From an uncultured Kiloniellales bacterium (GTDB lineage Bacteria; Pseudomonadota; Alphaproteobacteria; Kiloniellales; JAKSDN01): a stretch of DNA of 38,758 bases. The DNA lies in NCBI GenBank assembly GCA_947258885.1, contig CAMYKD010000015.1, positions 1 through 38,758 of the forward strand, in the 5' to 3' direction. The notes under the pieces were generated by a model. The model was not told the origin of the DNA. It searched no databases and saw only the letters and a list, made by a program, of their open reading frames with translations. Both the position numbers and the translations under genes were made by a program. Below are positions 20,008 to 38,758 of the stretch, piece after piece; position 1 is the stretch's first letter; each line of letters starts with the position of its first letter.

Positions 20008-20038
20008 GGCCCCATCAGGACATAGGAGGACATTCGAA

Positions 20039-22579: not shown

Positions 22580-22615
22580 GCCAAGAGGGAAAACCACACG
22601 AAAGGAGGATGAAGC

Positions 22616-23299: not shown

Positions 23300-23345
23300 C
23301 CGAGGTCGAGAGGCCTCTGCGCGCATGTAACCTGGGAGATGTCAG

Positions 23346-23981
23346 ATGAAACCATCGCTATGGCTTGCACTCCTCTTCTCGGCGATCCTGGTGACCACGG
23401 GCACATACGCGCAGGATGAACCGAACCCCTTGATAGGAAGCCATCTTTATCGCTCCTACTGCTTCGTCTGCCATGGGGTGGACGGCGGGAGCGGCGGGCC
23501 CATTGCAAGAAACCTCAACCTTGAACCGGCCGATCTTTCCTCCGAGCGATACCAGAAGACAAAAGTAGAGAACCTGGCCACGCTGATCGGGGGCTACCGC
23601 AGGCGGGAAGAGTCGGGCATGCCGAACTGGAGCATGGTGCTGACCCGGGCGGACCTGCTCGATATCGCGGCATACATTACCGTCATGACCCAGAAAGATC
23701 TCAGGTTCAGAGGGGACACGCGACGCGGACGGGCTATTTTCAAAAGGGCCTGTGCAGCTTGCCATGGCACGATTGGCGAGGGAAAAGGCCTTCTTGCACA
23801 CCAGATTGGCGTCTCCATGATGGATTTCACGAAATCCGAAAATATGAAGAAGCTAAGCGATGAGGATCTTATAGTCTTCGTCCGGGACGGTAGCGGAGAT
23901 TACATGCCGTCTTGGAAAGGGATCCTCAGCGACAGCGAAATTGCCGATGTCGCCTCCTACGTCCGCATGTTGGCGAGATAG
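23346..23981 (+). CDS. Periplasmic diheme cytochrome c
   Basis: 211 residues with a Sec signal peptide (residues 1-22, ending TYA-QD). There are two class I cytochrome c domains: heme 1 CFVCH (Cys39-His43), with Met92 in SGMPNW as likely axial ligand; heme 2 CAACH (Cys136-His140), with Met187 in DYMPSWKG. The tandem design resembles cytochrome c4-like or c-type electron shuttles. It is encoded 46 bp after the chaperone gene, in the same operon. It may accept electrons from, or donate them to, the Mo/Fe-S/12-heme complex on the way to a terminal oxidase or reductase. The GGGAG ribosome site is 9 nt before the ATG. Confidence 0.9.
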   Translation: MKPSLWLALLFSAILVTTGTYAQDEPNPLIGSHLYRSYCFVCHGVDGGSGGPIARNLNLEPADLSSERYQKTKVENLATLIGGYRRREESGMPNWSMVLTRADLLDIAAYITVMTQKDLRFRGDTRRGRAIFKRACAACHGTIGEGKGLLAHQIGVSMMDFTKSENMKKLSDEDLIVFVRDGSGDYMPSWKGILSDSEIADVASYVRMLAR

Positions 23982-24073
23982 CGACACCTGGGCTTGTTTG
24001 GGGAGTCGGGCGGTCTTGTTGCGTTGACGCCCGTGTGAGGTAGAATCCTCGTCCCTAGGGAGAACGGGCGGCC

Positions 24074-24493
24074 ATGCGCCAAAGCAACCAGCGGTGCCTA
24101 GCGGTGACGGCGCAGTGTCTCGGCGCCGCCCTGTTGGTCGCGCTGCTCTCCTTCTGCTCCCCCGCGGCGCAGACCATCGCGCCGGAGGACCTCGCGGACT
24201 ATCTCGAAAAGGGCAAGGCCGGAAAGACCTTCAACCTGGTTGATCTGCGTCCGGACGAGGCCTTTTCCGACCTGCACCTGCCGGGTGCGATCAACATCCC
24301 ATACGAACGCCTGGCCGCGGATCGACTGCTTTTTCTCGATGGTCTGCCGGTCATTTTCTACGACGAGGCCGAACTCGACGTCGGCCGTCTGAAGAAAGCG
24401 GTCGGCGCAAGGCTGCCTCGAAACGTGGTGGTTCTCGAAGGAGGCTTCCGCGGTTGGCTGGCGGCCCGTCTCCCGGTCACCGGGGGCACATAG
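24074..24493 (+). CDS. Exported rhodanese-like protein without the catalytic cysteine
   Basis: 139 residues. An N-terminal hydrophobic stretch (residues ~15-32, ending CSPAAQ) is a signal peptide, possibly of a lipoprotein although LSFC is a poor lipobox. The rest is a single rhodanese domain: FNLVDLRPDEAFSDLHLPGAINIPYERL matches the strand-helix region with DLR and H(L)PGAINIP, and VVVLEGGFRGWLAARLPV is the usual C-terminal GG...W. The active-site loop, normally a C....R loop after V(I/V)(F/Y)Y, reads VIFYDEAELDVGR, so the sulfur-accepting Cys is missing. Persulfide transfer is therefore unlikely; a binding or regulatory role is more plausible. It is 92 bp after the diheme cytochrome. Confidence 0.82.
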   Translation: MRQSNQRCLAVTAQCLGAALLVALLSFCSPAAQTIAPEDLADYLEKGKAGKTFNLVDLRPDEAFSDLHLPGAINIPYERLAADRLLFLDGLPVIFYDEAELDVGRLKKAVGARLPRNVVVLEGGFRGWLAARLPVTGGT

Positions 24494-25010: not shown

Positions 25011-25172
25011 GGCATCGCACCGGTTTGCCGCAGTATGCTGTCGCGGCGACGGCGGCAGGGGGAGCGCGCGCCTCGCGATGGATTGCAGGATCGTTCCCCG
25101 ACTGCGGGCAAAGGTGCTATAGTACACTACAAAAAGGCCGATCGGGTCAGTGCCCGCCACCTGCGTGCTCGC

Positions 25173-25188
25173 CCGATCGATCGATCGG
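25173..25188. promoter_or_regulatory. 16-bp palindrome upstream of the sensor operon
   Basis: CCGATCGATCGATCGG is a perfect palindrome 15 bp before a sigma-54-like element. It shares the CCGATCGG core arms with the operator-like palindrome at 17138 but with different spacing. A single CCGATCGG also lies at 25138-25145. Rest of 24951-25277: no gene. Confidence 0.35.
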
Positions 25189-25203
25189 ACCCTGGTCCGC
25201 TGG

Positions 25204-25218
25204 TGGCTGCTGGCTTGC
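25204..25218 (+). promoter_or_regulatory. Sigma-54-like promoter of the sensor operon
   Basis: TGGC (25204-25207) and TTGC (25215-25218) are both intact, with the invariant GG and GC exactly 10 bp apart; the ACG of the -24 element is not conserved (TGC). The implied start is near 25230, 48 bases before the binding-protein gene. If real, it would make the sensor genes positively autoregulated. Confidence 0.35.
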
Positions 25219-25277
25219 GCGACGGTACACTCGACAGGGCGTAGCCGGCGTTGCCTTGACCCCGGGTGGAGGCTCGC

Positions 25278-26177
25278 ATGATTCGCGCCATCCTCCAGGT
25301 GCTCGTACTCGCCGTGGCGTTCGGTTCCGCGCTGGCGGCCGAACCGACCGCTGTGCGGTTCGGATTGACGGCGGTCGTGGTGCGGGAGAACCTGCAGCTC
25401 TACGACCGCTGGTCCGCCTATCTGAGCAAGCATATCGGCCGCCCTGTCCATTTCGTTCAGGCGCGGTCCTATCGCGAGATCATGGGTCTCCTGGAAGTGG
25501 GCGGGCTCGATTTTGGCTGGATCTGCGGCTATCCCTTCGTGCAAAAGCGCGATCCGGAATTTCTCGAACTCCTCGCCGTTCCGGTCTTCGAGGGGGCGCC
25601 GCTCTACCGCTCCTATATCATCGTGCCCCGCGACAGCCCCTTTGCCGCCCTGGCCGATCTGGAAGGCCGGGTGTTCGCTTTGTCCGACCCGGACTCCAAC
25701 TCCGGCTATCTGGTGCCACAGGCGATGCTGGCCCGGATGGGGCACAGGCCGGACGACTTCTTCCGGCTCAGTTTCTTTACCTACAGCCATGCCGAAACGA
25801 TCGAAGCGGTGGCCGAAGGACTGGCCGACGGCGGCGCAGTCGATTCCTATGTTTGGGAATATCTGAACAGGACCCAGCCGGACCTGACCGCGCGAACCCG
25901 GATCATCGTGCGCTCCGAGACGTTCGGATTCCCGCCGCTCGTGTCCCGCCTGGGGATCGATCCGGAGCTGCGCGGCGGCATGGCCGCGGCGCTGGTCGGC
26001 ATGACCGCGGAGCCCGAGGGGCGCGAACTGCTTGCCGCGTTCGCGCTGGACCGTTTCGGCACGTTCCCGGAGAGCCTCTTCGACTCGATTCGCCAGACCG
26101 CGGACAGCCTGCGTCAGGTGCCGCTGGTCGCGCCGCCGCCGGACCGGACCGTCCGCATCATAGGGGACTCCGAATGA
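25278..26177 (+). CDS. PhnD-like periplasmic substrate-binding protein (sensor component)
   Basis: 299 residues with a Sec signal peptide (residues 1-20, ending ALAA). The body is a phosphonate-type (PhnD/AioX-like) binding fold: VRFGLTAVVVRENLQLYDRWSAYLS, then VHFVQARSYREIMGLLEVGGLDFGWICGYPF, then VFALSDPDSNSGYLVPQAML. The only cysteine in the whole protein is Cys83 (WICGYPF), at the ligand-cleft strand. No ABC permease or ATPase genes are nearby; instead it overlaps by 4 bp (ATGA) with a histidine kinase, so it is almost certainly a periplasmic ligand detector for that kinase, as AioX is for AioS. GGAGG lies 5 nt before ATG 25278, which fixes the start. The ligand is not known. Confidence 0.87.
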   Translation: MIRAILQVLVLAVAFGSALAAEPTAVRFGLTAVVVRENLQLYDRWSAYLSKHIGRPVHFVQARSYREIMGLLEVGGLDFGWICGYPFVQKRDPEFLELLAVPVFEGAPLYRSYIIVPRDSPFAALADLEGRVFALSDPDSNSGYLVPQAMLARMGHRPDDFFRLSFFTYSHAETIEAVAEGLADGGAVDSYVWEYLNRTQPDLTARTRIIVRSETFGFPPLVSRLGIDPELRGGMAAALVGMTAEPEGRELLAAFALDRFGTFPESLFDSIRQTADSLRQVPLVAPPPDRTVRIIGDSE

Positions 26178-27667
26178 GCTGGTACCGGCCACGGTCCTGG
26201 AGCTTGTCGGTCAAGATTCCCGTCACTCACAGCGTGATGATCGTCGGGGTGGCGCTCACCATAGGCGTCGTGGTCGTGGCTCAGGCCTGGGTGCAGTTCC
26301 GCGAGGAGCTGGAGGAGAAGGCGCTTCTTCTGGCCCGCGACGTTGCCACCGCCGCCCCCGGGGCGATCCTGCGGAACGACTACTGGACCCTTTACAATAC
26401 GCTCAGGCAAACGGCGTCGCACATGCCGGCCCGGATCGGGGAGCCGCGCCTCCTGTCCGGCATGGTGCTCGATACGGACGGCCAGGTGCTCGCGCACATC
26501 GACCCGATGAACCATCCCCTCGGCCTCGCCCTGGACCCGGTGGACGAAGCCGAGCGGCGCCTGCTCGATGACGCCTTGCGAACCGTGACGCCGAGCATCG
26601 TCACGGGCAGCAGCGGCGGCAGCGACTTCATCGAAGGCGTGGTTCCCATAACCTTCGACCAGAAGCGTCTCGGGGTGGTCCGCATTCGCGTGTCGATGGC
26701 CGAGCTGGAGGGGCAGATTTGGCGGGCGGGTTTCACCGTCCTGGTTCTGACCCTGGGCCTGGCCGCGGCGGGCAGCCTTCTGGGGGCGCTGATCTCGTCG
26801 CGCATGGTGGGCCGGCTGAAGGCCTTGGCCGAGGGCATGGAAACGGTCGGCCGCGGCGAGGTTTCGCAGGTTCGCCCGCTCGCCGCCACCAATCGCGACG
26901 AAATCGGCCAGTTGGTCGCGAGGTTCAACGAGATGGCGGCGGAGCTGGCGGAGAAGAAGCGGCTGGAGGAGAAGCTCGCCCTGAGCGAGAAGCTGGCGAG
27001 CCTGGGTCAGATCGTTGCGGGCGTCGCCCATGAGGTCAACAATCCCCTGGGAGGAATGCTCAACTGCATCAACACGTTGAAGACGCATCCGGACGATCCC
27101 GCGCTGCTGCGGCGCTACTTGCCGCTCTTGGAGAAGGGGCTCCACCGCATCGGTGCGACCGTTCAAGGGCTCTTGGTCGAGTTGCAGAACGAAGGCGAGC
27201 CGGCGCCCTGCGACCTCGCCTGTCTTTCGGACCTGAGGGAGCTGGTCGCCGCCGAGATCGGCGACCGGAAGATTGTACTCCGCTGGGACAACGGTGTGCC
27301 CGGCAAGACCTGCCTCGGCTGTTCTTGCCCCAACCTCCAGCAGGTCCTCCTGAACCTCATGAACAACAGCATTAGGGCCATGCCGGACGGCGGAACCCTG
27401 GACTTCCGCTCGTGCCGCGAGAACGATTCCCTGGTGATGGAGGTGGAAGACAGCGGGGTCGGCATCCCCAAGGAACACAGGCGGCACCTGTTCGATCCGT
27501 TCTTCACCAGCCGGCCCAACGGGACCGGACTGGGACTGTGGGTGACCTACCAGCTGGTCCAGAGAATGCATGGGACCATCCAGGTGGAAAGCGAGCCCGG
27601 GCAGGGCAGCCTGTTCCGCGTGCGCCTGCCGCTCGACGGCGACGCGGCGAAGGAGACGACCCGGTGA
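26174..27667 (+). CDS. Membrane sensor histidine kinase
   Basis: 497 residues. TM1 is at ~16-38, then a periplasmic sensor region (~39-183), TM2 at ~184-206, HAMP ~207-260, and a dimerisation/phosphoacceptor helix with His286 in GVAHEVNNPLGG. The HATPase_c domain has the N box NLMNNS (394-399), G1 DSGVGIP (426-432), DPFFTS and G2 GTGLGL. This NtrB-like (HEVNNPL) type normally phosphorylates NtrC-family regulators. Unusual is a group of cysteines between the two catalytic parts: Cys346, Cys350, and Cys380/383/385 (CLGCSC), plus Cys298 and Cys414. The start codon overlaps the stop of the binding-protein gene, and its stop overlaps the GTG of the response regulator, so all three are translationally coupled. 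Confidence 0.93.
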   Translation: MSWYRPRSWSLSVKIPVTHSVMIVGVALTIGVVVVAQAWVQFREELEEKALLLARDVATAAPGAILRNDYWTLYNTLRQTASHMPARIGEPRLLSGMVLDTDGQVLAHIDPMNHPLGLALDPVDEAERRLLDDALRTVTPSIVTGSSGGSDFIEGVVPITFDQKRLGVVRIRVSMAELEGQIWRAGFTVLVLTLGLAAAGSLLGALISSRMVGRLKALAEGMETVGRGEVSQVRPLAATNRDEIGQLVARFNEMAAELAEKKRLEEKLALSEKLASLGQIVAGVAHEVNNPLGGMLNCINTLKTHPDDPALLRRYLPLLEKGLHRIGATVQGLLVELQNEGEPAPCDLACLSDLRELVAAEIGDRKIVLRWDNGVPGKTCLGCSCPNLQQVLLNLMNNSIRAMPDGGTLDFRSCRENDSLVMEVEDSGVGIPKEHRRHLFDPFFTSRPNGTGLGLWVTYQLVQRMHGTIQVESEPGQGSLFRVRLPLDGDAAKETTR

Positions 27668-29040
27668 CGACGGCCGGTGAATCGGCCCCCGGCGCGCCAC
27701 GGGTTCTGTTGGTCGAAGACGACGAGATCATGCGCCTGTCGCTGGACGACCGGTTGCGCATGGAGGGGATCCCGGCCACCAGCGTCTCCGACCTGGCGGG
27801 GGCGCGGCGCGAATTGGCGAAGGGTGGTCTCGACCTCGTGGTGACCGACGTCCGGTTGCCCGACGGATCCGGCCGGACCTTGTTCGAGGAGGTCTGCCGG
27901 CAACACCCGGGGACGCCGGTGATTCTCATAACCGCCTATGTCTCGGTGCCCCAGGCCGTGGCGCTGATCAAGGCCGGCGCCGTCGACTATCTAACGAAGC
28001 CGTTCGACATCGAGGCGTTCATAAGCCTGGTCAAGCGGACGCTCTCGAGGGTTTCCGACGCCCATCAGGCGGAACTCACGGATATGGATGGCATGAAATT
28101 CCGGGCCGGCAGCGGCGCGCTCGGAAAGAGCCCTGCCATGCGCCGGATCGAAGACGTGGTCGCACGGCTGCGCGATGTCGACAGCTCGGTGCTCCTGACC
28201 GGCGAATCGGGCGTCGGCAAGGAAGTGGTCGCCCGTCTGGTCCACCACAACAGCCGCCGCGCCGGCGGACCCTTCGTCGCGATCAACTGCGCCGCCATTC
28301 CCGGCGAACTCGTGGAGAGCGAGCTCTTCGGCCACGAACGCGGGGCCTTCACGGGCGCCGACCACCGCCGTATCGGCCGGTTCGAACTGGCCGAAGGGGG
28401 TACCCTGTTCCTGGACGAGATCGCGGAAATTCCACCGGAGGTCCAGGTCAAGCTGCTGCGGGTCCTCCAGGAACGAAAAATCGAGCGGGTCGGCGGGGCC
28501 GTCCCCATAGCCCTCGACGTGCGCGTGATCGCGGCCACCCAGGTCGATCTCGACGAGGCGATGCGAAACGGCCGCTTCCGGTCCGATCTCTATTGGCGGC
28601 TGAACGTCATTCACGTCGCCATCCCGCCGTTGCGGGAGCGCAGCGAGGACATCGTCTTTCTGTCGCGGAAGTTCGTCGCGGAGCACGCGCGCGCGATGGA
28701 AAAGCAGGTGACGGGACTTTCGAGGCAGGCCGAGGCGCGCCTGCTGGACATGCCCTTCCCGGGCAATGTCCGGGAGCTGAAGAACCTCTTGGAACGGGCT
28801 GTCGCCCTCTGCGCCGGTCCCCAGCTCCAGGAGCATGATCTCTTTGTCCTGGAGTTGGAGGAGGCCGAGGTCGGGGCAGGGCCGCCCTCCCTCAAGGAGG
28901 CCGTGGCGACGACCGAACGCGCGGCCATCCGCTCTGCGCTCACGCGATCGGATTGGTCGATCACCAAAGCCGCCGAGGCCCTGGCGATTTCCCGCAAGAA
29001 TCTGTGGGAAAAGATGAAGCGCTACGGTATCGAGCGGTGA
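27664..29040 (+). CDS. NtrC-family sigma-54-dependent response regulator
   Basis: 458 residues. The receiver domain (residues ~13-125) has the acidic pair EDD at 18-20, phospho-acceptor Asp62 (VVTDVRLPDG) and Lys112 (LTKPFD). The AAA+ central domain has Walker A GESGVGKE (180-187), the sigma-54-contacting loop GAFTGA (227-232), Walker B GGTLFLDE (245-252) and the R-finger region, all intact. A Fis-type helix-turn-helix (~415-456, ITKAAEALAISRKNLWEKMKRYGI) ends the protein. It should bind palindromic upstream sites and drive the sigma-54 promoter at 17324 after phosphorylation by the kinase. GTG 27664 overlaps the kinase stop codon (GTGA). The layout parallels AioR/ArxR. Confidence 0.95.
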   Translation: MTTAGESAPGAPRVLLVEDDEIMRLSLDDRLRMEGIPATSVSDLAGARRELAKGGLDLVVTDVRLPDGSGRTLFEEVCRQHPGTPVILITAYVSVPQAVALIKAGAVDYLTKPFDIEAFISLVKRTLSRVSDAHQAELTDMDGMKFRAGSGALGKSPAMRRIEDVVARLRDVDSSVLLTGESGVGKEVVARLVHHNSRRAGGPFVAINCAAIPGELVESELFGHERGAFTGADHRRIGRFELAEGGTLFLDEIAEIPPEVQVKLLRVLQERKIERVGGAVPIALDVRVIAATQVDLDEAMRNGRFRSDLYWRLNVIHVAIPPLRERSEDIVFLSRKFVAEHARAMEKQVTGLSRQAEARLLDMPFPGNVRELKNLLERAVALCAGPQLQEHDLFVLELEEAEVGAGPPSLKEAVATTERAAIRSALTRSDWSITKAAEALAISRKNLWEKMKRYGIER

Positions 29041-29123: not shown

Positions 29124-29137
29124 TTGACCTATGTCAA
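29124..29137. promoter_or_regulatory. FNR/FixK-type (CRP-FNR family) binding site
   Basis: TTGAC-CTAT-GTCAA is a perfect dyad that matches the FNR/FixK/Dnr consensus TTGA(T/C)-N4-(A/G)TCAA. A possible -10 element, TGATAC (29163-29168), lies at roughly the class II spacing, which would put the start near 29172-29175. It suggests that the hdr-met-kor operon is switched on at low oxygen or by nitric oxide. The remaining 29041-29341 contains no gene. Confidence 0.65.
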
Positions 29138-29341: not shown

Positions 29342-32300
29342 ATGACCGGCGACGGCCAGAGTGGGGACGCCAAGGCCGTCGGGGCGGTTCTCGTGCTGGG
29401 CGGCGGGATCGCCGGCATGCAGGCGTCGCTGGATCTCGCCAACGGCGGCTACAAGGTTCACCTGGTCGAGAAGAAGTCGGCGATCGGCGGCCACATGGCC
29501 AAGCTCGACAAGACCTTCCCGACCAACGACTGCGCCATGTGCACGATCTCGCCGCGCCTGGTCGAGGTCGGGCGCCACCCCAACATCGAGCTTCTCCCCG
29601 ACAGCGAGCTCCTTGGCCTAGAAGGCCGGGCCGGGGACTTCACCGCCACCGTCCGCACCCGGCCGCGCTATATCGATCTCGACAGGTGCAACGGCTGCGG
29701 CAAGTGCGCCGAGGTTTGCCCGGAGCGGCTGTCCAATCCCTTCGACGAGGGACTGGGCGAACGGCGGGCCGCCTACAAGCTATACCCCCAGGCGACCCCC
29801 GACGCCTTTGCCATCGAAAAGCGCGGCGTCGCGCCCTGCCGCGATGCCTGTCCCGCCGGCCAGCGTGCCCAGGGCTATATCTCGCTCCTGCGCGAGGGGC
29901 GCATCGACGAGGCCTACCGGGCGATCAAGGAGGACAATCCCTTCCCCGGCATCTGCGGCCGCATCTGCGACCACCGCTGCGAGACCGCGTGCAGCCGGGG
30001 CAAGGTCGACGAGCCGGTCAATATCCACGGCCTCAAGCGATTCATCGCCGACGCGTTCTATGCGGGACCGCGCGTCAAGCCCGAGCCGGCGCCCCGCCGC
30101 TACGACGAGCGCGTCGCCATCATCGGCGCGGGCCCCTGCGGGCTGACGGTGGCCCAGGACCTCTGCCTCGAGGGCTATCCGGTTACGGTCTTCGAGGCGC
30201 TGCCGGTCGCCGGCGGCATGCTGCGGTTCGGCGTTCCCGACTTTCGGCTGCCCGCCGCCATCGTCGACCGCGAGGTCCGGGACATCGTCGATCTCGGCGT
30301 CGACCTCAGGCTCGGCGCGCCGGTCGAGAGCCTCGACGACCTGCTCGACGAGGGCTACGCCGCGGTGCTCATGGCCGTCGGCGCCCATGAGGGGATCCGC
30401 CTGCCGATTCCCGGCGGCGATCTCGACGGAATTCTCATCAACACCCGGTTCCTGCGCGACGTGCGGCTGGCGGAGCTCGGCGCCGAGGGCGCGCGGGATC
30501 CGCGGCCGGACATCGAGGGCAAGCGCGTCCTGGTGGTCGGCGGCGGGGACGTCGCTGTCGACGTCGCGCGAACGGCCGTTAGGCTCGGCGCCCGCGACGT
30601 GCAGATGGCGGTGCGCGGTAGCGGCGGCAAGATGCCGGCGAAGGAGTCCGAGATCGCGCGGGCGCGCGAAGAGGGCATCCGGATGCACGTCGGCCTGAAC
30701 TTCCTCCGCGTCGTCGACGACGGAAACGGGCGCGCGGCCGGCCTCGAGTGCCAGCGCGTAGAGCGCTTCGAGACCGACGAGACCGGACGTGCGGTGCCCC
30801 TGACCGCGCCGGGCTCCGAGCACGTCCTGGCCGCCGACGTGATCGTCTTCTCCGTCGGCCAGCGGGTCGGTCTGGCTTTCATCCCGGACGACGCCGGCGT
30901 GGGCGTCACGCCCGCACGGACCATCGCCGTCGATCCCGACACCTTTATGACGGATCGTCCCGGTATCTTCGCGGCCGGCGACAGCATCAGCGGCACCGCC
31001 TTCGTCATCGAGGCCGTGGCCGGCGGCCACAGTGTCGCCAAGGCAATCCACCGTCATCTGCGGGGCGAGACCATGAAGACGGCCCGGCCCGCCGGGCCGC
31101 CGGTCGCGGAGCTCTCGCAACAGGAGATCGACACCCGCCTTCTCAAGGGCGAGATCGACTACGCGCCCCGCACGCCGATGCCCGAGATCACGGTCGCCGG
31201 CCGCGCGGGCAATTTCACGGAAATCGAGCTCGGCTACAGCGAGCAAGAGGCCATGGCCGAGGCCGAGCGCTGCCTCTCCTGCGGCATCTGTTCGGAGTGC
31301 CTGACCTGCGTCCAGGCTTGCGGTGTCGACGCCATCGACCACGAGATGGAGGAGTCGACGCGCCGGATTCACGTGGGCGCCGCCATTCTCGCCCCCGGCT
31401 TCGAACCGTACCGCGCGGAGCTGTCCGAGGAATTCGGCCTGGGCCGCTATCCGAACGTCGTCACCTCGCTGCAGTTCGAGCGGCTGCTGAGCGCGTCGGG
31501 GCCGACCAACGGACAGGTGAAACGCCCCTCGGACGATCGCACGCCGAGGAAGATCGCGTTTCTGCAATGCGTCGGCTCGCGCGACCAGACGCACGATTAC
31601 TGTTCGGCGGTCTGCTGCATGTACGGGGCCAAGCAGGCCATCATGGCCATCGAGCACGAGCCCGAGACGCAGGCCCAGGTGTTCATGATGGACGTACGCG
31701 CCTTCAGCAAGGGCTACGAGGCCTATTACCGGCGCGCCCGCGACAAATACGGCATCGAGTATACGCGCTGCCGCATCTCGTCCCTCAAGGAGGATCCCGC
31801 GACCGGTGACCTGATCGTGAAGTATGTCGACCGTGCGGCGCCCACAGAATCCGGGGTCCACGAAGTGGCCTTCGACATGGTCGTGCTCTCCGTCGGCATG
31901 GAGGTCTCCGAGGGCGTGCGCGAACTCGGCCGCAAGCTGGGGCTCGAGCTCGACGATCACGGCTTCTGCCGGACCGTGCAGTTCGACCCGGTGCACACCA
32001 GCCGGCCCGGCGTCTACGCGGTGGGTCCCTTCCGCGAGCCCAAGGACATCGCGGAATCCTTGATCGAGGCCAGCGCGGCGGCGGCCTCCGCCGAAGGGAT
32101 GCTGGTCGGCGGCCGCGGCACCCTGACGCGCGCTCCCGCCTATGCGGCGGAGCGCGATGTCGCCGAGGAGGACCCCAGGATCGCGGTCTTCGTGTGCCAC
32201 TGCGGCACCAACATCGGCGGCGTCGTCGACGTCCCGGGCGTCGCTTGCTACGCGCGCTCGCTGCCCGGCGTCGTCGAGGCGGAGGAGAGCCTTTACGCCT

Positions 32301-33943
32301 GCTCCAAGGACAGCATCGAACACATAACCGAACGGGTGAAGGAGCTGAACGCGAACCGGGTCGTGATCGCCGCCTGTACGCCCTTGACGCACGAGCCCCT
32401 GTTCCAGGACAGCATCCGCGCCGCCGGGCTCAATCCCTACCTCTTCGAGATGGCGAACATCCGCAATCAGTGCTCCTGGGTGCACGGTCGCGATCCGGCG
32501 GTAACGGAAAAGGCCAAGGCGCTGGTGCGCATGTCGGCGGCCCGCGCGACCCAACTCGCGCCGCTCGAGACGGACAAGGTGCGCATGGGGCGCGCCGCCC
32601 TGGTGGTCGGCGGCGGCGCGGCCGGGATGACGGCGGCGCTCGAGCTCGCGGCCCAGAACTTCCCGGTACATCTGGTCGAGAAGAGCGACGCGCTCGGCGG
32701 CAACCTGCGCCGACTGCACTTCGGCATCGACGAGAGCGGGACCTCCACGAGCCTGCCGCTGGGCGCCGACGGCCGATATCTCGGCCCGCAGGACTTCCTC
32801 CGGCGGCTCCTCGGCGAGATCGAAACCAATCCACTGATCGCGGTCCACCTCGGGACCGAGGTGAGCGGCACCGCCGGTTTCGTGGGCAATTTCACCTCCA
32901 CCCTTCGGCCGACCGACCCCGACGACCCGCCGTTCGAGGTGAGCCACGGGGTGTCGATCCTCGCGACCGGCGGCGTCGAGTACCGCGGCGACGAGTACGG
33001 CTACGGCGCCAGCCCGCGCGTCGTCACCCAGCAGGAATTCGAGGCGCGGCTCGTGGGGCAGGGGGACGCGGGCGCCGAGGAGGCCGCGCTGCCCGGGTCC
33101 GTGGTAATGATCCAATGCGTCGGTCCGGCGGAACGGTACTGCGCCCGCGTCTGCTGCACCTCGGCGCTGAAGAACGCACTCATGCTGAAGCGCCTCGACC
33201 CCGAAACCCGGGTCACGATCCTCTATCGCGACATCCGCGTCTACGGGTTCAAGGAGCGTCTCTACACCGCGGCGCGCGAAAGCGGCGTGCTCTTCGTCCG
33301 CTACGACGAGACCCGCAAGCCCGAGGTCCGCGTCGCCGAGGACGACGGCGTCGAAGTCACGGTCTGGGAGGACGTGCTCGGCCGCGACCTCGTGCTGCGG
33401 CCCGACCTCCTGGTGCTCAGCACGCCGGTCGTGCCCTCGGCGGCGGCGCAGGAGCTGGGGCGCCGGCTCAGGTTGCCGACCGACGCCGACGGCTTCTTCC
33501 TCGAGGCGCACATCAAGCTGCGGCCGGTGGATTTCCTGTCGGAAGGCGTGTTCATGGCCGGCATGGCCCATTATCCCAAGCTGCTCGACGAGGCGATCGT
33601 GCACGCCAAGGCGGCGGCGGCCCGGGCGGCGGCGCTGCTGTCGCAGGATGCGATCACGACGGGCGGCCGTGTCGCGGCCGTCGACCAGGCGCGCTGCGTC
33701 GCCTGCCTCACCTGCCTGCGGACCTGCCCCTACGGCGCGGCCAACATCGCCGCCGACCTGGCCGGGACCGGCGGCATCGCCGGGGCCGCGACCATCGAGA
33801 GCGCCCTCTGCCGGGGCTGCGGCCTCTGTGCCGCGGCCTGCCCGGCCGGGGCCATCGAGCTCAAGCACTACACCGGCGCCCAGGTGATGGCGAAAGTCGA
33901 CGCGCTGTTCGAAGAGACCGCCAGGGAGGAGGTGCCGGCATGA
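29342..33943 (+). CDS. hdrA: HdrA-like flavoprotein with embedded GltD/NfnB-type NAD(P)H module
   Basis: 1533 residues, over twice the methanogen HdrA length. In order: HdrA FAD fold (VLVLGGGIAGMQASLDL, ~17) with PTNDCAMCTISP; a 4Fe-4S motif CNGCGKCAEVCPE (~116); a GltD-like insert starting PCRDACPAGQRAQGY (~165), with a second FAD fold VAIIGAGPCGLTVAQDL (~258), an NAD(P) fold VLVVGGGDVAVDVA (~396) and GIFAAGDSISG (~541); a Cys-rich cluster region CLSCGICSECLTCVQAC (~643); the rest of the first HdrA (FLQCVGSRD, ~737); a second HdrA unit (VCHCGTNIGGVVDVPGV ~950, VVGGGAAGMTAALEL ~1086); and two C-terminal 4Fe-4S motifs (CVACLTCLRTCP, CRGCGLCAAACP). Three flavins and at least four clusters suggest electron bifurcation or confurcation involving NAD(P)H. 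The ribosome site at ATG 29342 is poor; GTG 29252 is an alternative. The stop overlaps mvhD. Confidence 0.9.
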   Translation: MTGDGQSGDAKAVGAVLVLGGGIAGMQASLDLANGGYKVHLVEKKSAIGGHMAKLDKTFPTNDCAMCTISPRLVEVGRHPNIELLPDSELLGLEGRAGDFTATVRTRPRYIDLDRCNGCGKCAEVCPERLSNPFDEGLGERRAAYKLYPQATPDAFAIEKRGVAPCRDACPAGQRAQGYISLLREGRIDEAYRAIKEDNPFPGICGRICDHRCETACSRGKVDEPVNIHGLKRFIADAFYAGPRVKPEPAPRRYDERVAIIGAGPCGLTVAQDLCLEGYPVTVFEALPVAGGMLRFGVPDFRLPAAIVDREVRDIVDLGVDLRLGAPVESLDDLLDEGYAAVLMAVGAHEGIRLPIPGGDLDGILINTRFLRDVRLAELGAEGARDPRPDIEGKRVLVVGGGDVAVDVARTAVRLGARDVQMAVRGSGGKMPAKESEIARAREEGIRMHVGLNFLRVVDDGNGRAAGLECQRVERFETDETGRAVPLTAPGSEHVLAADVIVFSVGQRVGLAFIPDDAGVGVTPARTIAVDPDTFMTDRPGIFAAGDSISGTAFVIEAVAGGHSVAKAIHRHLRGETMKTARPAGPPVAELSQQEIDTRLLKGEIDYAPRTPMPEITVAGRAGNFTEIELGYSEQEAMAEAERCLSCGICSECLTCVQACGVDAIDHEMEESTRRIHVGAAILAPGFEPYRAELSEEFGLGRYPNVVTSLQFERLLSASGPTNGQVKRPSDDRTPRKIAFLQCVGSRDQTHDYCSAVCCMYGAKQAIMAIEHEPETQAQVFMMDVRAFSKGYEAYYRRARDKYGIEYTRCRISSLKEDPATGDLIVKYVDRAAPTESGVHEVAFDMVVLSVGMEVSEGVRELGRKLGLELDDHGFCRTVQFDPVHTSRPGVYAVGPFREPKDIAESLIEASAAAASAEGMLVGGRGTLTRAPAYAAERDVAEEDPRIAVFVCHCGTNIGGVVDVPGVACYARSLPGVVEAEESLYACSKDSIEHITERVKELNANRVVIAACTPLTHEPLFQDSIRAAGLNPYLFEMANIRNQCSWVHGRDPAVTEKAKALVRMSAARATQLAPLETDKVRMGRAALVVGGGAAGMTAALELAAQNFPVHLVEKSDALGGNLRRLHFGIDESGTSTSLPLGADGRYLGPQDFLRRLLGEIETNPLIAVHLGTEVSGTAGFVGNFTSTLRPTDPDDPPFEVSHGVSILATGGVEYRGDEYGYGASPRVVTQQEFEARLVGQGDAGAEEAALPGSVVMIQCVGPAERYCARVCCTSALKNALMLKRLDPETRVTILYRDIRVYGFKERLYTAARESGVLFVRYDETRKPEVRVAEDDGVEVTVWEDVLGRDLVLRPDLLVLSTPVVPSAAAQELGRRLRLPTDADGFFLEAHIKLRPVDFLSEGVFMAGMAHYPKLLDEAIVHAKAAAARAAALLSQDAITTGGRVAAVDQARCVACLTCLRTCPYGAANIAADLAGTGGIAGAATIESALCRGCGLCAAACPAGAIELKHYTGAQVMAKVDALFEETAREEVPA

Positions 33944-34443
33944 CCGCCACCGAGACCCCTTTCGAGCCGAGGATCGTCGCCTTTTGCTGCCGGCACTGCG
34001 CCTATGCGGCGGCGGACCTCGCCGGCACCTCGCGCCTCGCCTACCCGCCGGCGCTGAAGATCGTCGAGCTGCCCTGCACCGGGCGCGTCGATGTCCTCGA
34101 GTTGCTGCGCACCTTCGAGGACGGGGTGGACGGCCTCTTGGTCGCCGGTTGCCTCCCGGGACGTTGCCACTACCTGGCGGGCAACCTCCACGCCAGGCAG
34201 CGGGTGGACTACGCGCGGCGCTGGCTGGAGGACATCGGCCTCGAAGGCGAGCGCCTGCGCATGATCAACCTTTCCGCGGCGATGGGCGCGCAGTTCGCGG
34301 AGCTCGCCACGGAGATGGCCGAGACGATCAAGGACCTGGGCCCCAGCCCTCTCGGAACGCGGCAGACGGCGGGACAAGGCCTGTCGATCGGCTCCACGCC
34401 CTTGCCCGGCGAAGCGGTACACGATCATGGAGACGGACGATGA
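33940..34443 (+). CDS. mvhD: MvhD/FrhD-type hydrogenase iron-sulfur subunit
   Basis: A 167-residue protein of the MvhD family, the small [2Fe-2S] protein that passes electrons between HdrA and its partner enzyme. Family marks are the Cys pair CCRHCAYAAADLAG at the N-terminus, LPCTGRVDVLELLRTFEDG with the invariant PC.GRVD, and GLLVAGCLPGRCHYLAGNLHA with GC..G.CHY..GN; the four cluster cysteines are present. It is fused to nothing here, but its ATG overlaps the hdrA stop (ATGA), and its own stop overlaps the next gene, arguing for equal expression in one complex. GGAGG lies 8-9 nt upstream. No hydrogenase is encoded in the window, so the partner is likely MetV/MetF or a dehydrogenase elsewhere. 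Confidence 0.9.
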   Translation: MTATETPFEPRIVAFCCRHCAYAAADLAGTSRLAYPPALKIVELPCTGRVDVLELLRTFEDGVDGLLVAGCLPGRCHYLAGNLHARQRVDYARRWLEDIGLEGERLRMINLSAAMGAQFAELATEMAETIKDLGPSPLGTRQTAGQGLSIGSTPLPGEAVHDHGDGR

Positions 34444-35126
34444 TCGTCGCGAAACAGAAACCCCTTTCGGAACTCACCGCCATGCTGGACGGCTATCGCA
34501 ACGTGCTTGCCGTGGGCTGCGGCACCTGCGTCACCGTCTGCTTCGCCGGTGGAGTAAAGGAGGTCGGGATCCTCGCCTCGGCGCTGCGGATGGCGCGGCG
34601 GCTTGACGGCGAGCCGATGTCGGTCGCCGAGACCACGGTTCAGCGGCAGTGCGAGGCCGAGTACATCGCGCCGCTCGCCGAGGGACTCGACGAGTTCGAC
34701 GCCGTTCTGTCCCTGGGCTGCGGCGTGGGCGTCCAGACCCTGGCCGAGCGCTTCCCGGGCAAGCGCGTGCTCCCGGCGCTCGACACCGCCTTCATGGGCC
34801 TTCCCACGGAGCAGGGGGTGTGGGAGGAGCGCTGCCAGGGCTGCGGCCACTGCGTCCTCGACATCACCGGCGGCATCTGCCCGGTGAGCCGCTGCGCCAA
34901 GCAACTGATGAACGGCCCCTGCGGGGGCTCGCAGGGCGGCATGTGCGAGGTCGACACCGACACGCCCTGCGCCTGGCAGCTCATCTGGGAGCGCTTGGCC
35001 GGGCAGGGCCTGGCCGACCGCCTCCTGGAGATCCAGCCGCCGCGCGACTGGTCGACCAGCCGCGACGGCGGGCCGCGGCGCATCGTGCGCGACGATCTGC
35101 GCCTGCCCCCGGCAGAGGACGTCTGA
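34440..35126 (+). CDS. metV: MetV, methylene-THF reductase zinc/Fe-S partner subunit
   Basis: 228 residues of the 'methylene-tetrahydrofolate reductase C-terminal domain' family (MetV), the zinc/Fe-S subunit that accompanies MetF in acetogens. It begins with the typical KPLSELTAMLDGYRNVLAVGCGTCVTVCFAGG, followed by VLSLGCGVGVQTLAE. The Cys-rich end, CQGCGHCVLDITGGICP then CAKQLMNGPCGG, is the family hallmark and should bind metal or clusters. It feeds electrons to or from MetF, which is encoded 17 bp downstream. The start is ATG 34440, which overlaps the mvhD stop. E. coli-type MetF enzymes have no such partner, so its presence signals the ferredoxin/Hdr-linked form of the pathway. Confidence 0.9.
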   Translation: MIVAKQKPLSELTAMLDGYRNVLAVGCGTCVTVCFAGGVKEVGILASALRMARRLDGEPMSVAETTVQRQCEAEYIAPLAEGLDEFDAVLSLGCGVGVQTLAERFPGKRVLPALDTAFMGLPTEQGVWEERCQGCGHCVLDITGGICPVSRCAKQLMNGPCGGSQGGMCEVDTDTPCAWQLIWERLAGQGLADRLLEIQPPRDWSTSRDGGPRRIVRDDLRLPPAEDV

Positions 35127-35143
35127 AGGCAGAGGCCCGAACG

Positions 35144-36166
35144 ATGGACCAAATCTCAGCCCCGGCACCGGCGGCGCAGGCCCCCGCCCCGGTTCGAAGG
35201 TTCAAGTCGGGAAGCAACCTCGAACGTATGCTCGCCGCCGGTCATTTCGCGGTCACCGCCGAGATCGGCCCGCCGAAGAGCCATGACGCCGAGGTGATTC
35301 GAAGGAAGGCGGCATTGCTCGAGGGCTGCGTCGACGCCGCCAACATCACCGACAACCAGACGGCGGTCGTGCGGCTCAGCAGCATCGCCAGCGGCGCCAT
35401 CCTGGTCGGACAGGGGCTCGAGCCGGTCGTTCAGATGACCTGCCGCGACCGCAACCGCCTAGCCATGCAGAGCGACCTGCTCGGCGCGGCGGCGCTCGGC
35501 ATCCGCAACGTGCTGTGCCTGACGGGCGATCATCAGTCGCATGGCAACCATCCGGGCGCCAAGAACGTCCACGACATCGACTCGATCCAAATGGTGCGCA
35601 TGGTCAAGGAGATGCGGGACGAAGGCCTGTTCCAGTGCGGCGAGGAGATTTCCGGCGGCGGGCCGCCGCTCTTGATCGGCGCGGCGGCCAACCCCTTCGC
35701 CGACCCCTTCGAGCTGCGGGTGCACCGCCTGGCCAAGAAGGCGGCGGCCGGCGCCGACTTCATCCAGACGCAGCTCGTTTTCGATATGTCCCGGTTCCGC
35801 GAGTACATGAAGCGGGTCGTGGATCTGGGCCTGCACGAGAAAGTCGCGATCCTGGCCGGCGTCGGCCCGCTCAAGAGCGCCGGCATGGCGCGCCACATGC
35901 GCGACAAGGTCCCCGGAATGGTCGTCCCCGACGGCACCGTCGCGCGCATGGAGGCGGCCGTGGACGGCGTCGCCGCGGAGGACAAGCAGGCGCGGCGCGA
36001 GGCCTGGCGCGCCGAAGGGATCCGGATCTGTATCGAGCAGATCCGGGAGCTGCGGGAGATCGAGGGGCTGCGCGGCGTCCACATCATGGCGATCGAGTGG
36101 GAAGAGGCGGTACGGCCCATCGTCGAGGGCGCCGGCCTGTTTCCCCGGCCGGCACCGGAGGTGTGA
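35144..36166 (+). CDS. metF: 5,10-methylenetetrahydrofolate reductase
   Basis: 340 residues, with a TIM-barrel FAD enzyme of the MetF family from about residue 22: LERMLAAGHFAVTAEIGPPK (the catalytic Glu region), CVDAANITDNQ, VQMTCRDRNRLAMQSDLLGAAALGIRNVLCLTGD (with RDRN and TGD, folate- and FAD-contacting), and GADFIQTQLVFD. Residues 1-21 are an Ala/Pro-rich extension. It interconverts methylene-THF and methyl-THF. With MetV and the Hdr proteins beside it, this copy probably trades electrons through MetV and HdrA rather than free NADH, and could run in the methyl-oxidising direction. It precedes the HdrCB fusion by a 1-bp gap. The ribosome site is weak (GGCAGAGG). Confidence 0.92.
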   Translation: MDQISAPAPAAQAPAPVRRFKSGSNLERMLAAGHFAVTAEIGPPKSHDAEVIRRKAALLEGCVDAANITDNQTAVVRLSSIASGAILVGQGLEPVVQMTCRDRNRLAMQSDLLGAAALGIRNVLCLTGDHQSHGNHPGAKNVHDIDSIQMVRMVKEMRDEGLFQCGEEISGGGPPLLIGAAANPFADPFELRVHRLAKKAAAGADFIQTQLVFDMSRFREYMKRVVDLGLHEKVAILAGVGPLKSAGMARHMRDKVPGMVVPDGTVARMEAAVDGVAAEDKQARREAWRAEGIRICIEQIRELREIEGLRGVHIMAIEWEEAVRPIVEGAGLFPRPAPEV

Positions 36167-36167
36167 G

Positions 36168-37568
36168 ATGACGGCGGTGACAATGCCCGTGGCCGAGCCG
36201 CTCGCGGAGGTTGTTCTGCGGACTGCGGGTCAGAACGTCTACCGCTGCTACCAGTGCGTCAAATGCGCCAGCGGCTGCCCGCTCGCCGATGCCTTCGACC
36301 TCACGCCCGATCGCGTGGTGCGGAGCGTTCAGTTCGACGACGCGCAGGTTCTGGAGAGCAAAACGATCTGGCTGTGCGCGTCCTGCCAGACCTGTACGAC
36401 CCGCTGCCCGCAGGAGGTCGACGTCGCGGCCGTCATGGACGCGCTGCGCATGGAGGCCAAACGGCGCGGCGTGACGCCGGCAGTGCCCGAGATCGACGTC
36501 TTCAACCGGTTGTTCCTGCGGCTGGTCGAGGCCTTGGGCCGGCTCTACGAGCTGGGCCTGAGCCTGGCGTTCAACCTGGCCCGGAAAAAACCCTTGCACG
36601 AGCTCGGGCTGGGGCTCGCGCTGTTCAGGCGCGGCAAGCTGAAGCTGCGCCCGCCCTTTGCGCGCTCTCGGCGAAAGGTGGCACCCGTCGCGCAGCGAGG
36701 CGACCGGGCCGTCGGCTTCTTCCCCGGCTGCGCGCTCGATTCGACCGCCGCCGAGTACGGCCGCACGGTGCGCTCGGTCGCCGCCGCCCTCGACCTCGAG
36801 CTGGTCGAGCCGCCGGGCTGGGTCTGCTGCGGCTCGAGCCCCGCGCAGATGTCCGACGCTACGCTGGCCAAGGCGCTGCCCATGGAGACCATCGGCAGCG
36901 TCGAACAGATGGGGTTCGACACGGTGTCGACGCCCTGCAGCAAGTGCTTCGCGCGGCTCAAGTCCGCCGAGCACGCGGTCACCCGGGACGCGGAGACGGC
37001 CGAGATGGTGCAGGAGCGAACGGGCTATGCCTACGAGGGGACGGTGACGGTGCAGCACCTGCTCGATACGCTGGTCGACCACGCCGGCCTCGAGGCCGTC
37101 GCGGCGCGCGTCGAACGCCCGCTCGCCGGCCTCAAGGTCGCCTGCTACTACGGCTGCCTCATCACCCGGCCGGCCAAGCTGACCGGCGCCGAGCATCCCG
37201 AATATCCGACGAAGATGGACGCCCTCATGCGCGCGCTCGGCGCCGAGCCCGTGGACTGGTCCTACAAGACCGAATGCTGCGGCGGCGCGCTGAGCGTCAC
37301 GCAGACGCCGTTGGCGCTAGGCATGTCGCGTAAGGTCCTGGAGAATGCGCGCGACTGCGGGGCCGACGCGGTGGTCGCCATGTGCCCGATGTGCCACATG
37401 AACCTCGATACCCGGCAGCCGCAAATGGCGCTCGACGGCGCGACGCCGATATTCCACGCCACGCAACTCATGGTGCTCGCCTTCGGCCTGGGCGCCAAGG
37501 CGGCGGCGTTGAAGGGAAACGTGGTCGACCCCCGGCCCGTGTTGGAAGAGAGGAAACTCCTGACCTGA
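36168..37568 (+). CDS. hdrCB: HdrC-HdrB fusion subunit
   Basis: 466 residues joining two normally separate heterodisulfide reductase subunits. The N-terminus is HdrC: two 4Fe-4S motifs, CYQCVKCASGCP (~27-38) and CASCQTCTTRCP (~70-81). After a linker of ~100 residues comes HdrB with two complete CCG domains: Cys188-x31-Cys220-Cys221-x35-Cys257-x2-Cys260, and Cys330-x39-Cys370-Cys371-x34-Cys406-x2-Cys409. In methanogens the two CCG sites hold noncubane [4Fe-4S] clusters that split a disulfide. No heterodisulfide is known in this bacterial group, so the site may serve as an electron transfer point to MetV/MetF or act on another thiol or disulfide. The ATG follows the metF stop by one base, so coupling is tight. 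Confidence 0.92.
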   Translation: MTAVTMPVAEPLAEVVLRTAGQNVYRCYQCVKCASGCPLADAFDLTPDRVVRSVQFDDAQVLESKTIWLCASCQTCTTRCPQEVDVAAVMDALRMEAKRRGVTPAVPEIDVFNRLFLRLVEALGRLYELGLSLAFNLARKKPLHELGLGLALFRRGKLKLRPPFARSRRKVAPVAQRGDRAVGFFPGCALDSTAAEYGRTVRSVAAALDLELVEPPGWVCCGSSPAQMSDATLAKALPMETIGSVEQMGFDTVSTPCSKCFARLKSAEHAVTRDAETAEMVQERTGYAYEGTVTVQHLLDTLVDHAGLEAVAARVERPLAGLKVACYYGCLITRPAKLTGAEHPEYPTKMDALMRALGAEPVDWSYKTECCGGALSVTQTPLALGMSRKVLENARDCGADAVVAMCPMCHMNLDTRQPQMALDGATPIFHATQLMVLAFGLGAKAAALKGNVVDPRPVLEERKLLT

Positions 37569-37619
37569 CGAACCGGACCGGCCCGCCGCGACGCGCGTAA
37601 GACAGTCACGGAGCTGAAC

Positions 37620-38744
37620 ATGGGGCTTGAATTTCTCGAAGGAAACGAGGCCGTCGTCCGCGGGGCCCTGCGGGCGAAATGCGATTTCTTCGCCGGCTAC
37701 CCGATCACGCCGTCGTCGACGATCCTGCAAAGCATGCTGGAGCTGCTGCCGCAGGCCGGCGGCATCGGGATTCAGGCCGAGGACGAGATTGCCTCCATCG
37801 GCTTTTGCATCGGGGCGGCCATGGCGGGGCGCAAGGTGCTCACGGCCACGAGCGGCCCGGGCATCAGCCTGTACAGCGAAAACATCGGTCTGGCCATCAT
37901 GGGCGAGACGCCCATGGTGATCGTCAATGTCCAGCGCCAAGGGCCCGCCACCGGTTCCGCGACCAAAGGCGCCGAGGGCGACATTCAGTTCACCCGCTGG
38001 GTCACCTCGGGCGGGCTCCCGGTCATCGTCTTGAGCCCGGCCACGGTTGGCGAGAGCTACGAGCTCGCCTACAGAGCCTTCAATCTCGCCGAGCAGTACC
38101 GGGTGCCGGTCTTCCTGCTGACCAACAAGGAGATCGGCATGACGCGGGAATCCGTCGACCTCGACGCGATCGCGCTGCCCCCGCTCGTCGAGCGCAAGAG
38201 ACCCGACGGCACCCAGGACTACCTGCCGCACGACTTCGAAACGGCAAGCGACGTGCCGGCGTTTTCGGACTTCGGCGGCGATCGGATTGCCCGTTACACG
38301 ACCTCGACCCACGACAAGGGCGCCTACCTCACGGCCAGCCCCGCCGTGATCCAGGAGATGATCGACCACTACACGGCCAAGGTAGACGAGGCCGCCGACG
38401 ACATCGCCCTGGTGCGGGAGGACTGTCAGGACGAGGCGGAGATCCTGGTGCTCAGCTATGGCGTCACCTCCAGATCCGCCGACGTGGCCGTGCGGCAGGC
38501 CCGGGCCAAGGGCGTCAAGGTCTCCGCCCTGGTCCTCCAAACGCTCTATCCGGTTCCCGCGAAGGCGATCGCCCGGGCGATGGCGGGTGTCAGGAAGGTC
38601 ATAGTGCCCGAGATGAATATGGGGCAGTACCGGCTCGAGGTGGAGCGGCTGGCGCCCGCCGGCGTGGAGGTCGTGGGCGTGAACAAGATGGACACGACAC
38701 TCGTCTCCCCCGGGGAGATCCTGGAGCAGGGAGGCCTGTCATGA
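37620..38744 (+). CDS. korA: 2-oxoacid:ferredoxin oxidoreductase, alpha subunit
   Basis: A 374-residue alpha subunit of the 2-oxoglutarate/2-oxoacid:ferredoxin oxidoreductase family. GNEAVVRGALRAKCDFFAGYPITPSS opens the pyrimidine-binding domain (the YPITPSS motif is conserved), then EDEIASIGFCIGAAMAG and TATSGPGISLYSENIGLA. QRQGPATGSATKGAEGD matches the substrate/CoA-contacting loop of KorA. The C-terminal transketolase-like domain ends VPEMNMGQYRLEVERL. It should oxidise a 2-oxoacid with CoA and reduce ferredoxin with the beta subunit, whose gene overlaps its stop. The gamma domain of some PORs is absent, so it is the two-subunit type. The operon position suggests it supplies ferredoxin to the HdrA complex; the 51-bp gap after hdrCB has no promoter that I recognise. 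Confidence 0.92.
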   Translation: MGLEFLEGNEAVVRGALRAKCDFFAGYPITPSSTILQSMLELLPQAGGIGIQAEDEIASIGFCIGAAMAGRKVLTATSGPGISLYSENIGLAIMGETPMVIVNVQRQGPATGSATKGAEGDIQFTRWVTSGGLPVIVLSPATVGESYELAYRAFNLAEQYRVPVFLLTNKEIGMTRESVDLDAIALPPLVERKRPDGTQDYLPHDFETASDVPAFSDFGGDRIARYTTSTHDKGAYLTASPAVIQEMIDHYTAKVDEAADDIALVREDCQDEAEILVLSYGVTSRSADVAVRQARAKGVKVSALVLQTLYPVPAKAIARAMAGVRKVIVPEMNMGQYRLEVERLAPAGVEVVGVNKMDTTLVSPGEILEQGGLS

Positions 38745-38758
38745 GTACGATCGCATAT
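38741..38758 (+). CDS. korB: Start of the beta subunit of the 2-oxoacid:ferredoxin oxidoreductase (cut by window)
   Basis: ATGA overlap with the korA stop and GGGAGG eight to nine bases upstream mark a new gene; only six codons (MSTIAY) are visible. Identification as korB rests on its position after korA, where the beta subunit always follows in this family. Confidence 0.6.

Follow-up and report, generated by a model that had tools for sequence, protein, structure and literature searches.

The operon and its intactness

The window analysed here is a stretch of 38,758 nucleotides from an uncultured Kiloniellales bacterium (contig CAMYKD010000015.1), belonging to a 53.8-kb contig of a 4.9-Mb genome that is 97% complete and is labelled G000 below. 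At its 3' end lie seven co-directional genes in the order hdrA-mvhD-metV-metF-hdrCB-korA-korB, as established by translation and by Pfam and NCBIfam scans. Judged from these families and domains, the operon encodes a Moorella-type Hdr-methylene-tetrahydrofolate (methylene-THF) reductase complex (HdrA-MvhD-HdrCB-MetV-MetF) and also a 2-oxoacid:ferredoxin oxidoreductase (KOR) of its own. Six of the genes are complete in the window and the seventh, korB, is represented by its initial 18 bases.

29342..33943, + strand: hdrA, 1533 amino acids, Moorella-type
33940..34443, + strand: mvhD, [2Fe-2S] electron-transfer subunit, 167 amino acids (FlpD PF02662, E 3e-45)
34440..35126, + strand: metV, Fe-S subunit of Hdr-type methylene-THF reductase, 228 amino acids (DUF5981 PF12225, E 1.2e-36)
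35144..36166, + strand: metF, flavin catalytic subunit of methylene-THF reductase, 340 amino acids (MTHFR PF02219, E 1e-36)
36168..37568, + strand: hdrCB, fusion of HdrC and HdrB, 466 amino acids (HdrC-like N-terminus and CCG domains)
37620..38744, + strand: korA, predicted alpha subunit of 2-oxoacid:ferredoxin oxidoreductase, 374 amino acids (POR_N, E 2e-54)
38741..38758, + strand: start of korB (beta-gamma fusion), which continues outside the window to contig position 40054 (L007:741-2054)

The gene junctions measure -4, -4, 17, 1, 51 and -4 bp, so that five of the six are overlaps or gaps of at most 20 bp; a preliminary description of the locus had reported this arrangement, and it holds at the coordinates above. 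KorA scores 405.9 bits against NCBIfam PRK08659, below the cut-off of 411. KorB, of 437 amino acids, combines a TPP_enzyme_C match (E 8.5e-30) with a gamma-type POR domain (E 3e-16), and a short stretch of it reads N.

Both other searched genomes of the genus (G001 and G002) contain the operon genes, and in either genome a contig break interrupts hdrA. Protein identity to these congeners is 92-100%, except for MvhD at 84-86%, and the block upstream of the operon contains long stretches common to both at 90-94% DNA identity. Because this upstream block is shared as well as the genes, a binning error in a single metagenome-assembled genome can be set aside. The ratio of nonsynonymous to synonymous substitution rates (dN/dS) against a congener is 0.09-0.23 over six segments (metV, metF, hdrCB, korA and two parts of hdrA), and none contains a stop. 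These values exclude pseudogenes, a state of decay in relatives that the preliminary description had named as evidence against its reading; together with the family matches and the conserved gene order, dN/dS also rules out a chance run of open reading frames.

Protein make-up of the complex

HdrA, HdrB, HdrC, MvhD, MetV and MetF are all encoded together, which is the gene set of an Hdr-type methylene-THF reductase. The N-terminal half of HdrA is a thioredoxin reductase-like (TrxR-like)/HdrA part split by an inserted GltD/NfnB-like domain at residues ~160-580, and the C-terminal half is a second complete HdrA, with a CxCGxN domain, a second TrxR-like domain and a C-terminal dicluster ferredoxin domain for 2x[4Fe-4S]. 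The GltD insert and the extra TrxR-like domain place the protein in the Moorella type, as judged against the published description (PMC9430772) rather than against a Moorella sequence; here and below, what is taken from cited papers comes from excerpts of them. HdrA residues E713/K764 and E1234/K1277 (in ungapped numbering; some protein sequences in later analyses were possibly read with alignment gaps) align with E356/K409 of the solved HdrA 5odc_A from M. thermolithotrophicus. The Glu/Lys pair of bifurcating HdrA is thus kept in both TrxR-like flavin domains, and all four residues are invariant in the comparison with HdrA of the proteobacterial carrier G181.

Two CCG motifs, which would bind non-cubane [4Fe-4S] clusters, occur in HdrCB with spacings C-x31-CC-x35-CxxC and C-x39-CC-x34-CxxC, and in MetV all 13 of 13 cysteines are invariant among four aligned sequences. 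The complex type given in the preliminary description, MetFV-HdrABC-MvhD, is therefore borne out by families, domains and cofactor residues.

The GltD domain of the window HdrA reads GGGDVA (GXGXXA) and has VRG where NfnB-type proteins have YRR. The arginines of YRR hold the phosphate of NADP. This position is VRG or CRG in the window and in 6/6 matched proteobacterial relatives, and in matched Chloroflexota it is CLE (7/11) or an RR form (4/11); the motif expression matched part of the loci only, and unmatched rows carry no information. The replacement hints weakly at the use of NAD(H) by the GltD domain. We write the cofactor as NAD(P), since the GXGXXA motif is retained.

Distribution and history

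Full-length HdrA was found in 2/385 genomes of the class and in 3/58 relatives, all three of one genus, and full-length MetV at E <= 1e-15 was found in the window genome alone among 398 genomes of the phylum; these searches scored few best candidates per genome, so misses are possible, and the set of 58 included four same-family genomes, two of them only 69-72% complete. The operon is, within these searches, not common in its lineage; the preliminary description had named a common and characterised operon there as evidence against its reading. Nine genomes of another family of the class (L015-L023, eight of them in one genus) match the C-terminal part of MetV only, at 45-47%.

Two short MetV peptide patterns were used to scan 84,980 species genomes; of 150 confirmed places the 80 best were retained, and because of this selection the distribution describes near relatives only. 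Chloroflexota account for 43 of the best 80 loci, and the remainder are mainly of Desulfobacterota type, with a few Alpha- and Gammaproteobacteria, two Acidimicrobiaceae, one Myxococcales contig and one Thermoplasmata archaeon. Alpha- and Gammaproteobacteria carry the operon sporadically. The complete HdrA[GltD]-MvhD-MetV-MetF-HdrCB core is present in six further proteobacterial loci (L024, which belongs to G181, and L037, L041, L042, L045 and L088) and in many Chloroflexota loci, other loci being cut by contig ends. In those Desulfobacterota loci whose genes are visible, HdrA-MvhD-MetV-MetF is present, HdrA lacks the GltD insert and no HdrCB adjoins metF; in L109 a separate GltD-bearing HdrA lies 5 kb away. 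The preliminary description had treated the complex as one of acetogens. Its Moorella-type character stands, but the complex is not confined to acetogens, given the Chloroflexota share above and the published clusters of marine Chloroflexi and an actinobacterium.

In a quick tree of MetV and MetF with 76 rows, the proteobacterial and myxobacterial rows fall outside the group of Chloroflexota and Acidimicrobiaceae (Shimodaira-Hasegawa-like approximate likelihood ratio test, SH-aLRT, 96), and alpha- and gammaproteobacterial rows are intermixed, L037 grouping with L088 for example (SH-aLRT 100). Three circumstances define this comparison: L041, labelled gammaproteobacterial in the tree and recorded as Proteobacteria only, was assigned to neither side in the approximately unbiased (AU) test; L103, with a partial MetF and a very long branch, is in the 76-row tree and was dropped for the AU test; and L051 and L087, Deltaproteobacteria by title, have a partial MetF and are absent from the tree. 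A single alphaproteobacterial clade is rejected (AU p 0.006), which removes a single inherited alphaproteobacterial trait from consideration and answers the question of transfer that the preliminary description had referred to a gene tree. Since alpha- and gammaproteobacterial rows are mixed and one alphaproteobacterial clade is rejected, transfer of the operon between classes is most likely. An origin inside the sampled Chloroflexota is not supported, since the proteobacterial and myxobacterial rows fall outside that group.

Methyl-group metabolism in the carrier genomes

Fifteen carrier genomes were compared for genes bearing on the fate of the methyl group. A search for acetyl-CoA synthase (CdhC/ACS) found none in 11 proteobacterial carriers (G000, G001, G002, G181 and G797-G803) and detected it in the other four (G804-G807, from Myxococcales, two Chloroflexota and Acidimicrobiaceae). 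With no ACS found (0/11), acetogenesis is unlikely in the proteobacterial carriers. COX1 occurs in 14/15 carriers, including COX1-type oxidases in the window genome, and FTHFS in 10/15.

The window genome has three MTHFR matches, of which the strongest lies on contig C52, the others being the operon MetF and a match on C77. The C52 gene is followed at ~2 kb by the B12 domain belonging to a MetH-sized frame of 1191 amino acids, and with that frame it looks sufficient to cover the methionine supply.

Candidates for the production of methyl-THF lie elsewhere in the same genome, where the preliminary description had suggested looking for methyltransferases. There are six MTTB genes, one of which adjoins a corrinoid protein on C61. 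A cluster on C58 contains a corrinoid protein, DUF1638, a Virulence_fact protein, a pterin-binding methyltransferase (Pterin_bind) and a RACo-type activator, along with a distant MTHFR-like protein (E 3e-4, under the Pfam cut-off), and a KorAB pair lies on the same contig. All parts of an MttB-superfamily pathway (MTTB, corrinoid protein, methylcorrinoid:THF methyltransferase and activator) are therefore in the window genome as far as domains alone identify them. The DUF1638 and Virulence_fact genes occupy L221:14489-15416 (G000:C58), inside this corrinoid C1 cluster, and DUF1638 has been linked to corrinoid recharging (PMC12478193). One MTTB gene stands among genes resembling BKACE, carnitine 3-dehydrogenase and GbdR, all under NCBIfam cut-offs, and in L041 a dimethylglycine-dehydrogenase-like gene (DAO-FAO_M-GCV_T) and an MTTB gene lie one gene past the operon on the opposite strand.

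MTTB was found in 11/15 carriers and in 62/289 genomes of the class, or counted by lineage in 9/13 versus 61/288 (Fisher p 0.0004), where the background is one class minus the window genome and the carriers, hand-picked from the kept loci, span other phyla.

As a separate observation, G181, a carrier with no MTTB match, encodes near its Hdr core (L024:4017-6205) a PQQ-type (pyrroloquinoline quinone) alcohol dehydrogenase (PF01011, E 2e-66) and a small protein in which a CxxCH haem motif was recognised by eye; alcohol oxidation is possible there.

Candidate sources of reduced ferredoxin

The preliminary description had pointed to the KOR beside the complex. It is indeed part of the window operon, but it lies outside the shared core and is nearby in some lineages only. 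Among nine proteobacterial loci, a KOR or POR gene near the core is seen in three (the window genus, G181 and L088), of differing kinds, where 0.27 would be expected (p 0.003) on the assumption of random gene placement and with L036, L051 and L087 omitted, none of which has a KOR/POR match. The genes of G181 form a PorA-PorB-GltD set oriented divergently from the Hdr core, and in L088 KorB lies upstream of the core and an aldehyde:ferredoxin oxidoreductase downstream. KorA/KorB matches also occur downstream of the core in four Chloroflexota loci (L048, L065, L069 and L073), and the window genome has eight POR_N matches in all.

A POR gene lies near a GltD/ferredoxin-like gene both in L222:3789-8319 (G000:C31) and in L024:15745-19670 (G181), PorB having been checked in G181 only. 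These GltD-like genes keep YRR, and the pairs are perhaps 2-oxoacid:NAD(P) oxidoreductases.

Upstream region and candidate oxygen control

One further element is found between the upstream regulator gene and hdrA:

29124..29137, + strand: FNR/FixK-type palindrome TTGACCTATGTCAA, candidate low-oxygen control site

This is the sole TTGA-N6-TCAA of the window. In 100 shuffles the strict form TTGAC-N4-GTCAA appeared in 0/100 and the loose form TTGA-N6-TCAA in 12/100. The alphaproteobacterial FnrN/FixK consensus is TTGANCNNGATCAANG (PMC4999443), of which TTGACCTATGTCAA matches the TTGA/TCAA arms and not the whole. The palindrome is identical in G001 and G002, at the same distance to hdrA. A TTGA-N6-TCAA lies <=400 bp upstream of hdrA in 4/8 loci (the window, G181, L042 and L088) where first-order Markov sequences give an expectation of 0.04, the hdrA starts of several relatives being approximate; in G181 the box could serve the divergent por genes instead. 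None was found in 14 upstream stretches from Chloroflexota and Acidimicrobiaceae (0/14). The operon is probably induced at low oxygen by a regulator of the FNR/FixK type.

An AtoSC/NtrC-like sensor kinase and response regulator are encoded at 25025-29040, in the block shared with the congeners, ending at 29040, 300 bp 5' of hdrA; this pair may regulate either the molybdoenzyme cluster or the hdr operon. The former, at 17546-24493, comprises a NapC/NirT-type multihaem cytochrome, a DsrO/TtrB-like Fe-S protein, a PhsA-like molybdoenzyme, a TorD/NarJ-like chaperone, a cytochrome c and a rhodanese, a putative respiratory molybdoenzyme system that looks like one for low-oxygen respiration. The aerobic-type setting proposed in the preliminary description accordingly applies to the genome, with its COX1-type oxidases, but not to the direct upstream neighbours, which are this NapC-type/molybdoenzyme cluster, the two-component system and the candidate FNR/FixK box.

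Proposed mechanism and alternatives

The function that we consider somewhat better than an even bet is confurcation at low oxygen: the Hdr-MetVF complex, supplied with reduced ferredoxin by KorAB and controlled by an FNR/FixK-type regulator, would use that ferredoxin to drive the oxidation of methyl-THF with NAD(P)+. Methyl groups of quaternary amines of the betaine or carnitine type would pass through MTTB enzymes to the corrinoid protein and, by the pterin-binding methyltransferase, to THF. MetVF would then oxidise methyl-THF to methylene-THF (E0' about -200 mV), and KorAB and other POR-type enzymes would supply reduced ferredoxin. The electrons from methyl-THF and the low-potential electrons from ferredoxin would converge at the HdrA flavins and be delivered jointly to NAD(P)+ by way of the inserted GltD domain, so that ferredoxin pays for an otherwise uphill oxidation. 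The NAD(P)H could be passed on to the respiratory chain, and an FNR/FixK-type regulator would raise transcription at low oxygen.

Taking E0' of methylene-THF and NADH from PMC9430772 and assuming the ferredoxin potentials, we computed about +23 kJ/mol for the oxidation of methyl-THF with NAD+ alone, and about +4 (3.9), -2 and -12 kJ/mol for the confurcating sum with ferredoxin at -420, -450 and -500 mV. We infer the oxidative direction because it best fits the MTTB enzymes upstream in the pathway, the KOR/POR ferredoxin source, the respiratory sink for NAD(P)H and the lack of any ACS found.

Several points weigh against this proposal. At -420 mV the sum is +3.9 kJ/mol under standard conditions, and it becomes favourable only if ferredoxin is more negative. 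Complexes of this kind are mostly discussed as reductive, and purification of the one from Moorella did not succeed (PMC9430772). Because metagenome assemblies make up most of the carriers, absences of ACS and MTTB can be gaps. The enrichment of MTTB is not significant in alphaproteobacterial lineages alone (3/5, p 0.07), and four of the 15 carriers (G181, L045, L042 and L047) gave no MTTB match. KOR/POR genes were not seen near the core in 6/9 proteobacterial loci, some of which lie on short contigs. As for oxygen control, the box was first spotted by eye and the statistics were run afterwards, it lies ~210 bp 5' of the hdrA start codon, and no TTGA-N6-TCAA was found upstream of hdrA in L037, L045, L041 and L087.

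The same gene set has been proposed to work reductively in Moorella (PMC9430772), and by analogy NADH could be bifurcated to methylene-THF and ferredoxin, making methyl-THF, while the ferredoxin drives KorAB, a reversible enzyme, as a 2-oxoacid synthase fixing CO2 into 2-oxoglutarate or pyruvate. We consider this unlikely, since the search of 11 proteobacterial carriers turned up no ACS that would consume methyl-THF, the methionine supply is apparently met by another MTHFR, and the genome is rich in enzymes that would themselves make methyl-THF. A link to quinones is more improbable still. Here the electrons of methyl-THF would run through MvhD and HdrCB to membrane quinones with no ferredoxin involved, the reverse of what was suggested for Sporomusa ovata, whose Hdr-linked MTHFR was found in the membrane fraction (PMC9430772); the oxidases of the window genome would suit such a route. 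The HdrA encoded here, however, has the NAD(P)H-type GltD domain that S. ovata HdrA lacks, no membrane subunit is among the family matches of the seven genes, and oxidation of methyl-THF by ubiquinone should run downhill and need no such machine. Rated marginally lower again is a ferredoxin:NAD(P) balancing module that serves many POR-type enzymes, with the KOR linkage as its main business and MetVF as a minor side branch. Although the eight POR_N matches and the recurring KOR/POR linkage would agree with it, MetF accompanies MetV while KOR is dispensable; MetV was itself the query, so its presence alone proves nothing.

Comparison with known systems

Complexes of this type are known from Moorella, Sporomusa, marine Chloroflexi and one actinobacterium (PMC9430772, PMC5736913, PMC7325909). 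Alpha- and Gammaproteobacteria are not named as hosts among the literature matches listed, which comprise titles and abstract openings and so are weak evidence of absence. Within that compass, four features appear to be new: occurrence in oxidase-bearing Alpha- and Gammaproteobacteria without detected ACS, an operonic KOR, a link to MTTB, and an FNR-type box. If a flavin-confurcating complex of a type thought typical of strict anaerobes does oxidise methyl-THF in oxygen-respiring Proteobacteria, electron confurcation would extend to a new physiology, and such hosts, in which the complex probably runs oxidatively, would allow a test of whether the Moorella-type complex is reversible.

The closest likeness is to HdrABC-MvhD-MetVF of Moorella thermoacetica, which shares the subunits, the GltD insert and two TrxR-like domains each with an E/K pair. 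Its HdrA, of 162.8 kDa, for which the NADH:benzyl viologen activity is given as 190 U/mg, carries the GltD insert and the E/K pair of the bifurcating flavin in both TrxR-like domains (PMC9430772). The window differs in its fused HdrC-HdrB, the order hdrA-mvhD-metVF-hdrCB, KOR genes within the operon and an FNR-type box upstream, and its host differs in that no ACS was found and oxidases are present. The hdrABC-mvhD-metVF cluster of marine Chloroflexi (DscP3) likewise has a fused hdrC-hdrB, and the hdrA-mvhD-metVF-hdrCB cluster of the Hakuba actinobacterium has a gene order identical to that of the window; both were placed in the Wood-Ljungdahl pathway (PMC5736913, PMC7325909), whereas the window host is without detected ACS. 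In archaeal Type III HdrA, GltD is likewise inserted and was proposed to let NADH replace ferredoxin at that site (PMC12054007). The archaeal proteins have GXGXXG, unlike GGGDVA (GXGXXA) in the window, where VRG also replaces the NfnB-type YRR.

On the side of methyl-group metabolism, the demethylation of betaine by MtgBCD-MetF2 in Ruegeria pomeroyi shares with the window genome the MTTB-family enzymes, RamA/RACo, DUF1638 and a presumed oxidation of methyl-THF (PMC12478193). Betaine-demethylating bacteria must oxidise methyl-THF, a step that is uphill with NAD+. In Ruegeria a single-subunit MetF2 is thought to carry it out (PMC12478193), while the window genome additionally has the Hdr-MetVF complex, and the operon would be an alternative to the Ruegeria-type MetF2. 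A bolder version of the proposal, which we hold only tentatively and as somewhat less than an even chance, is that oxygen-respiring Proteobacteria reversed the bifurcating methylene-THF reductase of acetogens into a low-oxygen, confurcating and ferredoxin-powered methyl-THF dehydrogenase with an operonic KOR, an oxygen-switched alternative to MetF2 for osmolytes of the betaine type.

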